This document shows positions 60,264-63,463 of a DNA stretch of 63,463 nt, piece after piece. Position 1 is the stretch's first letter. Each line of letters starts with the position of its first letter. Made by a program: the position numbers and the translations under genes. The stretch covers positions 1-63,463 of the forward strand of contig RDOG01000022.1 of the NCBI GenBank assembly GCA_011365055.1, written 5' to 3'. The stretch comes from Promethearchaeota archaeon (GTDB lineage Archaea; Asgardarchaeota; Lokiarchaeia; Helarchaeales; RDOG01). Below the pieces are notes generated by a model, which was given only the letters and a program-made list of their open reading frames with translations, was not told the origin of the DNA and did no database searches.

Positions 60264-60710
60264 ATGAAAATTAAGAATAGTAAAAACATTGAATTTGCTG
60301 TAAATATCGCAAAAAATTTATCAGAATGGTTTACGGAAGAAGCTATTAAAAATATTTCACAAGATGGACTTAATAATGAATTATTAATTGCAAAAATAAA
60401 TGAGAAAATAGTAGGTTTCTTAATATACAAAATAATAGGAAAAAATTGTGAAATTCAATGGCTTGGAGTAAATAGAAACAATTGGAGAAGAAATGTTGGA
60501 ACTAAATTAATAAGAGAATTAGAAAAAATTCTAAAAAATGATGAAATTGAAGAAATTTTTCTTTCTACTTTGGCCGATACAGTAGATTATGAACCTTATG
60601 AAATAACCCGTAAATTCTTTAGGAAAAATGGATTTAGAAATAAGAGGATTGATAAAGATTTTTATCCCGATGGTGGAGATCGACTTATCTTACACAAAAA
60701 ATCTAAATAA
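60264..60710 (+). CDS. GNAT family N-acetyltransferase
   Basis: 148 residues. Compact GNAT domain: NELLIAKINEKIVGFLIYK, CEIQWLGVNRNNWRRNVGTKLI (in parts; the R-R-N-V-G-T acetyl-CoA loop), a FFRKNGFRNKR strand near the end. N-acetylates an unknown amine. First gene of the small island that also holds the tiny ORF and radical SAM gene, all on the same strand. Confidence 0.85.
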   Translation: MKIKNSKNIEFAVNIAKNLSEWFTEEAIKNISQDGLNNELLIAKINEKIVGFLIYKIIGKNCEIQWLGVNRNNWRRNVGTKLIRELEKILKNDEIEEIFLSTLADTVDYEPYEITRKFFRKNGFRNKRIDKDFYPDGGDRLILHKKSK

Positions 60711-60781
60711 AATATGTGGTTCTTAAATATTAATTTTTGAAATATCCCATAAAGCACAAAGTAAGAAAGGAAGGAATATGA

Positions 60782-60862
60782 GTGTCAAAATGTAAACCAG
60801 ATCTTGATATTAATAGGATAAAAAAAATAGAAATTAAAGTTAAGAAGAAAAATCAAAAATAA
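60782..60862 (+). CDS. 26-codon ORF upstream of the radical SAM gene, candidate precursor peptide
   Basis: A GTG with AAGGAAGG 7 nt upstream (60767-60774) opens a frame of 26 codons: MSKCKPDLDINRIKK, then a Lys/Ile-rich end (VKKKNQK). The single Cys is at position 4, with P-D-L-D-I in a leader-like stretch. Being between GNAT and the radical SAM/SPASM gene, with a good ribosome binding site, it could be a modified-peptide (RiPP) precursor. Low complexity in AT-rich DNA makes chance possible. Confidence 0.4.
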   Translation: MSKCKPDLDINRIKKIEIKVKKKNQK

Positions 60863-60945
60863 TTCTCACAAATCTCATTCCATTTTATTTTTTAATATAA
60901 AAAAAATTCGAATAACAATTAAATATTAAAGGTTTAGAGATTAGA

Positions 60946-62241
60946 ATGAAAAAAATAAAACATTATAGTGTCCCGCATTTACTTCATATCGAAACTACAT
61001 ATATATGTAATTCAAAATGCATTTTCTGTTATAATCCAAATCGAAAATCAAAGATTAATTATAAAATTCTTGATAGAATTGTTGAAAAGGTATGGAAAGA
61101 ACAAATCCCTCATGTTTATCTCATTGGTGGAGAACCTTCACTATTAAATATTGAAAAGTTGAATGAATACATAGAAATGTTATCTGAAGTATCTTCAGTA
61201 ACTATTGTAACTAATGGAATAAAATATTTAAAAAATCTATCTAAAAATTTAGCTTGTATCGGTATTCCAGTACATGGTACAAAGGAAACTCATGAATTTG
61301 TAACTAAAGTTAAAGCATTTGATAAATCTGTTAGTTCTATTAGAAGATATGTTGATCAAGGATTTGATCTCCGTTGTATTCCTGTCTTAATGTCAATCAA
61401 TTATGATCAAATCTATCAAATTATAGAATTTGCAGATAAATTGAAAATGTCTAATGTATTTATTGATAGATTTGAATCGGGGGGAATCGGTAGCAAATTA
61501 ATGGAAAAACTGAAACCAAGTAATGAACAATTTAAGGAATCAATAACACAAATCATTAAAGCAAAAAACGACTTTGAAATTCCAATTGGATTTGGAACTG
61601 CTATTCCTTGGTGTATTGATGAAAGGTTGATTGAAGAAGAACTTATTTCTGATTGTGGTGTTGGAATAACTTTTGCAGCTATTAATCCTAAAGGGGATTT
61701 AAGGATTTGTAATCAATCTCCAATAGTTTATGGAAATATTCTGAATGAGTCCATTGGGGAAATTTGGAACAAAAAATCTATAAATGATTATAGAAATTTG
61801 GAATGGATAACTGAACCTTGTAGAAGTTGTACTTTGGTTTATGATTGTATTTGCGGATGTAAGGTTGATGTTTCTTTTACTAAAAAATACTGTGTGGATT
61901 ACGCGGTAAGGGATATGAAAGAGAGTCCATTTAAAAATTTCAAACCAAAAATAGACAGGGATTTTAATTTAGATTATCCCAAAAAAAATCGTACATTTGA
62001 AATTTCTCCCTACTCAAAATCAAACCTAATTCATAAAGAAAAATATATAGTTACTCGTTATCAGACCGTTGAATTAGATAAAACTGCATTAAAAATGTAT
62101 ATGGACATAAAAAATGGTATTAATAATGAGACTGAATTAATTAATAAATATTCAAATATCATAGATATAGAGAATATAAGGAAATTTGTATCAAAGTTAG
62201 TTTTTATCGATTCAATACGTGTAAAAGGGTTGGATACTTGA
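60946..62241 (+). CDS. Radical SAM/SPASM protein with a PqqD-like C-terminal domain
   Basis: 431 residues. Radical SAM motif C21-x3-C25-x2-C28 (YICNSKCIFCYNP), LIGGEPSLL for SAM binding, then a SPASM region (about 265-310) with DLRICNQS, EPCRSCTLVYDCICGC and KKYC giving auxiliary-cluster cysteines. The last ~70 residues (VTRYQTVELDKTALKMYM..., NNETELINKYS, VSKLVFIDSI) fit a PqqD-like RiPP recognition fold. Such proteins modify ribosomal peptides. Neighbours: tiny ORF 83 nt upstream, YkgJ protein 24 nt downstream. Confidence 0.85.
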   Translation: MKKIKHYSVPHLLHIETTYICNSKCIFCYNPNRKSKINYKILDRIVEKVWKEQIPHVYLIGGEPSLLNIEKLNEYIEMLSEVSSVTIVTNGIKYLKNLSKNLACIGIPVHGTKETHEFVTKVKAFDKSVSSIRRYVDQGFDLRCIPVLMSINYDQIYQIIEFADKLKMSNVFIDRFESGGIGSKLMEKLKPSNEQFKESITQIIKAKNDFEIPIGFGTAIPWCIDERLIEEELISDCGVGITFAAINPKGDLRICNQSPIVYGNILNESIGEIWNKKSINDYRNLEWITEPCRSCTLVYDCICGCKVDVSFTKKYCVDYAVRDMKESPFKNFKPKIDRDFNLDYPKKNRTFEISPYSKSNLIHKEKYIVTRYQTVELDKTALKMYMDIKNGINNETELINKYSNIIDIENIRKFVSKLVFIDSIRVKGLDT

Positions 62242-62265
62242 GTATTTAGGAGTAATGGGTTAAAA

Positions 62266-62808
62266 TTGATTAATAATCTTCCATCGCTCTATAAGGAATT
62301 AGATTTTTTATTTGAACCTATGAAACTCTATTGTAAACAATGCAAAGATTGTTGTACAACATATGGATGGCTTTTACCTGAAGAAGCAAAATTTCTCTAT
62401 GAGGAAGGAATTCAGATATTAGAAATTAATAATCAATATTATTGCATTGATTCCATTTTAAAAGATCAATATGGTAACTTTAAAAATATTGAACTTGTAC
62501 CGATATGTAATTTTTATAAAAATTTTCAATGTACTCTTTATAAAAAAAGACCACTCATTTGTAGACTCTATCCAATAACATTTAAGTTTAAAAATAATTC
62601 AATTTTAATAGGATTAGATAAAGATTGTTTTTTTATTAATTCGATTAGTGATCAAAAAATTGAAAAATTGATTAATAACGCAAAAAAACTAGTTAAATTC
62701 TGTAGAAAAGATTTTTTAAATAAAATAATTACAACTTATCAAAATATTAATTCTTTATGCAAACCAAAAGAATATGATATAATAAAAATAATAAGTTGGG
62801 AGCCTTAA
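62266..62808 (+). CDS. YkgJ-family cysteine-cluster protein
   Basis: 180 residues. C23-x2-C26-x2-C29-C30 (CKQCKDCC) near the start, GWLLPEEAKFLYEEGI, then CNFYKNFQCTLYKKRPLICRLYP, the second part of the YkgJ/zinc-iron-cluster family (UPF0153). These proteins bind a metal or Fe-S centre and often occur beside radical SAM enzymes. Start is TTG, GGAG lies 13 nt upstream. Co-transcription with the radical SAM gene is likely. Confidence 0.82.
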   Translation: MINNLPSLYKELDFLFEPMKLYCKQCKDCCTTYGWLLPEEAKFLYEEGIQILEINNQYYCIDSILKDQYGNFKNIELVPICNFYKNFQCTLYKKRPLICRLYPITFKFKNNSILIGLDKDCFFINSISDQKIEKLINNAKKLVKFCRKDFLNKIITTYQNINSLCKPKEYDIIKIISWEP

Positions 62809-63143: not shown

Positions 63144-63392
63144 TCACGGTGAATATTTCCAGAGATCGTTCAACCAGTCAAAATTACTCGCATTGTCGGA
63201 TCCCCAGCCGCCGAAGAGCCACAAATTACCGCCAATATCCGTCCAAGATACACCACCATACCTCGCACCGGGCACGTTCGCTGCATCCGCCACGCCCTGC
63301 GTGCCGTAGATGCCTGGCTTATCGCTCGTATCATTGCCGGATACCCACGTCCAGGTCGCATCGCTAACATTGAACCTCCAGAGATCGTTCAA
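63144..63392 (-). pseudogene. Kelch/galactose-oxidase-type beta-propeller fragment in foreign-looking DNA
   Basis: The minus-strand frame encodes NDLWRFNVSDATWTWVSG, GARYGGVSWTDIGGNLWLFGG and ends NDLWKYSP before a TGA: two kelch blades of a type common in bacteria and green algae. An in-frame TAG lies four to ten codons upstream of the first blade, so no intact gene is visible. Composition turns GC-rich from about 63141 to the end, unlike the rest. The segment also repeats CCAGAGATCGTTCAA at 63159-63173 and 63377-63391, the NDLW repeat. Chimera or transferred remnant; see findings. Confidence 0.6.
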
Positions 63393-63463
63393 AAGTGCCC
63401 GAGAGCACGCCTAGGACAACCAGTCACCACCGTAGAGGCACAAGACATCGACAACATCCGACC

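Follow-up and report, generated by a model that had tools for sequence, protein, structure and literature searches.

Does a 26-codon open reading frame (ORF) in front of a radical SAM enzyme gene in an Asgard archaeon encode the substrate of that enzyme, or is it a chance frame? The question is raised by one locus in a contig of a Promethearchaeota archaeon (GenBank assembly GCA_011365055.1, contig RDOG01000022.1), the 63,463 nucleotides of which form the stretch analysed here (the window). The RNA polymerase A' encoded in it shares 91% identity with one assigned to Candidatus Helarchaeota, which places the window among the Helarchaeota. At this locus the genes for a GNAT acetyltransferase, the short peptide, a radical SAM/SPASM enzyme (rSAM1) and a YkgJ-family Cys-cluster protein run in a single direction across 60264-62808, with gaps of 71, 83 and 24 bp (Table 1). 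An earlier note on this DNA had taken the short ORF, its ribosome binding site and the enzyme for a possible peptide-modification system resembling those of ribosomally synthesized and post-translationally modified peptides (RiPPs). The ORF is as that note described it, in position, in its GTG start and in the Shine-Dalgarno-like sequence AAGGAAGG that precedes it, and its product is MSKCKPDLDINRIKKIEIKVKKKNQK, which we refer to as the MSKC peptide. The gene for this peptide is kept with rSAM1 across two domains of life. Other archaea and bacteria also have it next to this enzyme, and so its product is probably the starting material for a type of modified peptide not described before. We consider it likely that the peptide is the substrate of rSAM1 in a small RiPP-like system, an interpretation supported by the conserved peptide sequence, by the predicted fold of a RiPP recognition element (RRE) at the end of the enzyme and by the association of the two genes.

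Conservation of the peptide gene with rSAM1

Length and a ribosome binding site are insufficient to establish the ORF, because a sense ORF of 26 codons or more turns up in 25% of 2000 dinucleotide shuffles of the 235-bp gap that contains it (60711-60945), and one with a Shine-Dalgarno-like motif in 3.4%. Likewise, an ATG at 60778 opens an overlapping 5-codon frame that could use the same Shine-Dalgarno sequence. These observations fit the view that the short ORF is accidental and that the locus encodes an ordinary radical SAM enzyme with a small-molecule function, but this view is contradicted by the recurrence of the peptide at other loci, by its co-occurrence with the enzyme in whole genomes (both described below) and by a profile built from bacterial peptides only (16 sequences). 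When this profile was run against 1689 short-ORF starts across the whole window, the ORF was the sole significant match (expectation value, E, 1.9e-5; runner-up E 4). AGGAGG-type sites also stand at the equivalent position before several homologous peptide ORFs. By sequence conservation, then, the ORF clearly lies beyond chance, and by length and ribosome binding site alone it barely does; we give the accidental-frame explanation almost no credence.

A genome scan with a single protein as query found no loci, and one with an alignment of 25 relatives found 20, mostly in Patescibacteria; the genome sample added one independent archaeal locus (L024). The earlier note had proposed looking for a conserved short ORF in related loci, and homologues indeed exist at 20 of 22 loci (L001-L018, L024 and the window), the arrangement of a precursor peptide gene adjoining its enzyme that marks RiPP systems. 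At the archaeal loci L003 and L017 an ORF beginning MSKC lies 13 and 25 bp upstream of rSAM1, and a profile made from these two peptides and that of the window recovers the peptide at the remaining intact loci (E 4e-10 to 2e-6). The gene is found upstream of rSAM1 at four archaeal loci, just downstream of YkgJ at 15 bacterial loci and, at L004, upstream of rSAM1 on the opposite strand; mostly it overlaps the operon or lies at most 83 bp from it. At L006 (10171-10851) the end of the YkgJ ORF and the peptide share one reading frame, through either a natural fusion or a nested start. At L016 (4881-6274) rSAM1 is split over two overlapping frames, by a frameshift or a sequencing error. The MSKC peptide was not found at L019 or L020, nor anywhere in those two whole genomes, and rSAM1 is shortened there to 88 and about 75 matching residues, respectively, with an RNHCP gene retained beside it (L019:7632-8333; L020:43-759). 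Because RNHCP sits next to a truncated rSAM1 in genomes that have no MSKC peptide, these loci are decayed copies.

The association holds across whole genomes. A peptide search returned exactly one match in 18 of 20 genomes. In samples of 379 and 371 genomes from two phyla, 3 and 2, respectively, have rSAM1, and the peptide is in those same 3 and 2; as these five genomes had contributed to the peptide model, the informative part of the comparison is the near-absence of the peptide elsewhere. Two extra weak peptide matches in these samples (E 0.007 and 0.008) lie within frames of 329 and 444 residues and, from this sequence context, look like chance.

Among the 20 locus peptides, M1, S2, K3, C4 and D9 are invariant (the first codon being GTG in three), and the single Cys at position 4, to which the earlier note had drawn attention, belongs to this fixed set. 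Over all sequence pairs, comparisons of codons 2-12 comprise 916 synonymous, 506 non-synonymous and 668 identical cases. Searching a database at E <= 10 yielded 142 peptide clusters, from candidates gathered through shared 5-residue words, which favours conserved heads; in the best 120 of these 142, S2, K3, C4 and D9 are present in all 120 and K12 in 119, and the pattern is nearly fixed to residue 21, followed by a variable, low-complexity tail. No family of Pfam or NCBIfam covers the peptide: three Pfam models match one or two of the 20 members at E >= 0.02, and NCBIfam models match none.

A conserved N-terminus and a variable C-terminus are the usual layout of a RiPP precursor, and the fall in conservation after residue 21 could mean that the head is a leader and the tail a modified core, as in classical RiPPs. 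However, no residue of the tail is conserved, and most of it is Ser, Lys, Gln, Glu, Ala and Pro. Within the same best 120 peptides, Cys occurs beyond position 4 in 9 and any Trp, Tyr, Phe or His in 29; furthermore, an invariant Cys would be odd for a leader. We regard this division of the peptide as unlikely.

The enzyme and its predicted recognition domain

That rSAM1 is a radical SAM enzyme with SPASM cysteines, as had been claimed, is confirmed both by Pfam (Radical_SAM 57.6 bits, cut-off 29.5; SPASM 38.4 bits, cut-off 21.5) and by residue conservation. There are 388 relatives at E <= 1e-3, and in the best 120 of these, one is 99% identical and the others 49-59%. The core cysteines C25 and C28 are present in 121 of 121 sequences and C21 in 120, and the SPASM cysteines C237, C255, C292, C295, C301 and C305 in all 121. 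The same is true of C104 (61255-61257) and C223 (61612-61614), which by position belong to neither the core nor the SPASM set and are on that account candidates for a catalytic role, a lead only. The AlphaFold model (predicted local distance difference test, pLDDT, 78.7; predicted template modelling score, pTM, 0.82) places SkfB, SuiB and anSME nearest to the catalytic part among solved structures, and by sequence the nearest is PqqE; the closest solved relatives (PqqE, SkfB, SuiB and CteB) are peptide-modifying enzymes.

Membership in named families was tried and rejected. The scores are below the cut-offs for PqqE (TIGR02109, 69.1 against 381.35 bits) and for the PapB ranthipeptide maturases (NF047865, 39.7 against 340 bits), and among the best 25 of 50 NCBIfam matches, the SPASM domain model TIGR04085 is the one that reaches its cut-off (31.2 against 27 bits), so that no other radical SAM equivalog fits either. 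A viperin-like defence enzyme was likewise rejected (NCBIfam viperin 31.7 against a cut-off of 180; PADLOC pVip 37.6 bits, a partial match to the model), as was a mobile element, there being no relative in viral contigs, nor in plasmids or phages at E 1e-30. In a tree of 20 enzymes the window shares a branch that is not firm (91/89) with L001, L004 and three DPANN rows; because the archaea require two changes, this tree leaves the direction of transfer undecided.

The C-terminus had been described as PqqD-like. The Pfam PqqD model (PF05402) matches neither the window rSAM1 nor any of 17 C-terminal domains, and nothing exceeds its cut-off in three related genomes. A fold search with the whole model was dominated by the barrel and left the C-terminal domain untested, for which reason that domain was predicted separately (pLDDT 80.9); its best structural matches are RREs. 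As modelled, then, the enzyme has the peptide-recognition domain of RiPP systems.

Partner genes and the minimal core

The features of the locus are collected in Table 1.

Table 1. Annotated features at the rSAM1 locus of the window
Feature	Position	Strand	Remarks
GNAT acetyltransferase, optional neighbour	60264..60710	+	Pfam Acetyltransf_1 44.9 bits (cut-off 20.7); homologues at 3 others of the 21 loci
Shine-Dalgarno-like AAGGAAGG	60767..60774	+	7 nt 5' of GTG start
MSKC peptide gene, proposed precursor	60782..60862	+	26 aa; homologous ORF in 20/22 loci
rSAM1 (radical SAM/SPASM enzyme, putative C-terminal RRE)	60946..62241	+	431 aa; Pfam, 388 relatives, AlphaFold
Radical SAM core, residues 15-163, CX3CX2C at C21/C25/C28	60988..61434	+	Pfam PF04055
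SPASM domain, residues 237-296 by Pfam, further Cys C301, C305	61654..61833	+	Pfam PF13186
Predicted C-terminal winged-helix domain, RRE/PqqD type, residues 346-431	61981..62238	+	Separate structure prediction, RRE matches
YkgJ/CxxCxxCC Cys-cluster protein	62266..62808	+	180 aa; Pfam PF03692 32.5 bits (cut-off 23)

The downstream gene is of the YkgJ family, as first proposed, and a relative of it is present at all 19 loci with a judgeable downstream side; the CxxCxxCC motif is intact in 5 of these, including the window, and degenerate in 14. A second radical SAM enzyme (rSAM2) is encoded at 16 of 19 judgeable loci and was not found in the window, L011 or L013, where rSAM2 queries match only rSAM1. 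RNHCP is present, in single copy and at the operon, in all 16 bacterial genomes with an intact locus, and was not found in the three archaeal genomes with the system. Because YkgJ is always there, while rSAM2 and RNHCP are not universal, the window holds the minimal core of peptide, rSAM1 and YkgJ. RNHCP, a zinc-ribbon domain, was rejected as a substrate or hallmark of the system, given its absence from those archaea and how common it is where the system is lacking: 137 of 379 Patescibacteria-group genomes have it, against 3 of 379 for rSAM1. A literature search, thin on subscription journals, gave no biological paper on it. Fusions join RNHCP to rSAM1 (P0047), rSAM1 to YkgJ (P0082), rSAM2 to YkgJ (L003, L010, L012 and L014) and rSAM1 to rSAM2 (L004, plus seven long proteins from the database, five of which were Pfam-checked).

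The GNAT gene had been suggested as a further modifier, and as a required part it did not hold up. Homologues (E 1e-14 or better) occur at L003, L006 and L014, which with the window makes 4 of 21 loci, and the GNAT neighbour of L024 shows no sequence relationship to the one in the window. The best genome-wide GNAT match adjoins the locus in G003 and G005, and there is none in G524. One cluster of related proteins has members no more than 8 kb from rSAM1 at 6 of 21 loci (L002, L005, L007, L008, L009 and L018), its L008 member being an Amidohydro_2 protein, and a class I methyltransferase cluster is found at 5 of 21; both are possible accessory genes. At the far end of the window (63144-63463), G+C rises from about 0.2-0.3 to 0.54-0.62 and a Kelch-like frame lies on the minus strand, possibly a chimeric contig end.

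No peptidase or exporter was found among the gene families shared by the loci, or in 10 further annotated proteins (9 of them neighbours, which were annotated in part). This bears on two other explanations. The MSKC protein could be a small subunit, or a metal or Fe-S ligand, of the enzyme complex, with Cys4 as the ligand and the tail as a flexible linker; its single invariant Cys, the strict co-occurrence and the continuation of YkgJ into the peptide at L006 would fit this equally well. Yet in RiPP pathways the RRE fold serves to bind peptides, and peptides are also what the nearest solved relatives of the catalytic part modify; by this analogy we think a mere subunit quite unlikely. Alternatively, the peptide could serve as a scaffold that yields a small molecule or cofactor by excision, as PqqA yields pyrroloquinoline quinone (PQQ), with an aminotransferase and the second radical SAM enzyme acting in later steps. 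The kinship with PqqE, the lack of a recurring exporter and a class I/II aminotransferase gene at L001 and L004 lend themselves to this idea, but that gene is at just 2 of 19 judgeable loci, rSAM1 misses the PqqE cut-off, and the peptide is not PqqA-like, having no Glu/Tyr pair; a scaffold role thus seems very unlikely.

A proposed mechanism and its relation to known systems

If the MSKC peptide is the substrate of rSAM1, the RRE would bind it, the probable contact being the run of alternating hydrophobic residues that follows Asp9 (K-[IV]-x-x-[IL]-x-[VI]-K), which would act as a follower, and the invariant head MSKCxxxLD would be presented to the active site. There the 5'-deoxyadenosyl radical of rSAM1 could abstract a hydrogen and the head would be modified; the likeliest chemistry would be a thioether between Cys4 and Asp9. 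These residues (CX4D) place a Cys and an acceptor Asp at the short spacing of ranthipeptides, and a Cys-Asp link is suggested by PapB, which links at CX3D and tolerates zero to six spacers. PapB makes Cys-Asp thioethers at CX0D to CX6D, and those with 1-5 spacers go to completion (PMC9413430). Two points weigh against this step, the additional Asp7 of the window peptide and the exclusion of rSAM1 from the PapB family, and because of them we hold the thioether, an analogy in any case, to be somewhat less than an even prospect. YkgJ would be a required metal-binding partner, in an Fe-S/electron or assembly role, with rSAM2, RNHCP and the aminotransferase supplying further steps in other lineages; the variable tail may remain unmodified.

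It is informative to compare this arrangement with known systems. PapA and PapB (freyrasin, ranthipeptides) share a radical SAM/SPASM enzyme with an RRE and a peptide in which a few residues separate Cys and Asp. In contrast, rSAM1 carries its putative RRE at the C-terminus and scores far below the cut-off of the PapB model, and the MSKC peptide has a single Cys, close to its N-terminus. The PQQ pathway (PqqA, PqqD, PqqE) differs in its peptide and in the family models that rSAM1 fails to match. SkfB, SuiB and CteB have unrelated peptide sequences and carry their extra domain at the N-terminus, as judged from alignments in which the start of rSAM1 pairs with residues near 85-100 of the solved chains, whereas that of rSAM1 is C-terminal. 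FliB, with which the window YkgJ shares the PF03692 domain, has a similar motif and a [4Fe-4S] cluster on which its lysine methylation depends (PMC8598068); FliB acts alone on flagellin, while YkgJ always accompanies rSAM1, and a FliB-like catalytic role is disfavoured in most loci because the motif is degenerate. In the daptide system, removing the C-terminal RRE of the modification partner MpaB stops the reaction (PMC10036551); the position of the RRE is alike, although MpaB does not perform radical SAM chemistry and the other enzymes and peptides differ.

Radical SAM RiPPs are already known as a kind, and archaeal ones from broad surveys (PMC12144867). For the peptide-enzyme pair there is no family model, and the literature search, with its thin coverage of subscription journals, gave no description of it or of MSKCKAVLD; there is a real chance that the system is its own class. 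We hesitate to go much further, and tentatively suggest, with doubt outweighing confidence, a new RiPP class of reversed layout, in which an N-terminal core (MSKCxxxLD) precedes a C-terminal follower read by a C-terminal RRE, found in Asgard archaea, DPANN archaea and Patescibacteria, and in which the peptide would stay in the cell in a cofactor- or regulator-like role and not be secreted.

Cultures of Patescibacteria, DPANN and Asgard archaea are rare, and not many of the peptides that these groups make are known. The compact core of three genes (a peptide, a radical SAM enzyme with a putative built-in recognition domain, and YkgJ) offers a clear, strongly conserved substrate candidate and is small enough for direct testing in E. 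coli, and it puts YkgJ and RNHCP proteins into a definite setting. That enzyme and peptide go together in two domains of life points to a function that is worth conserving, or to transfer of both as a single cassette.
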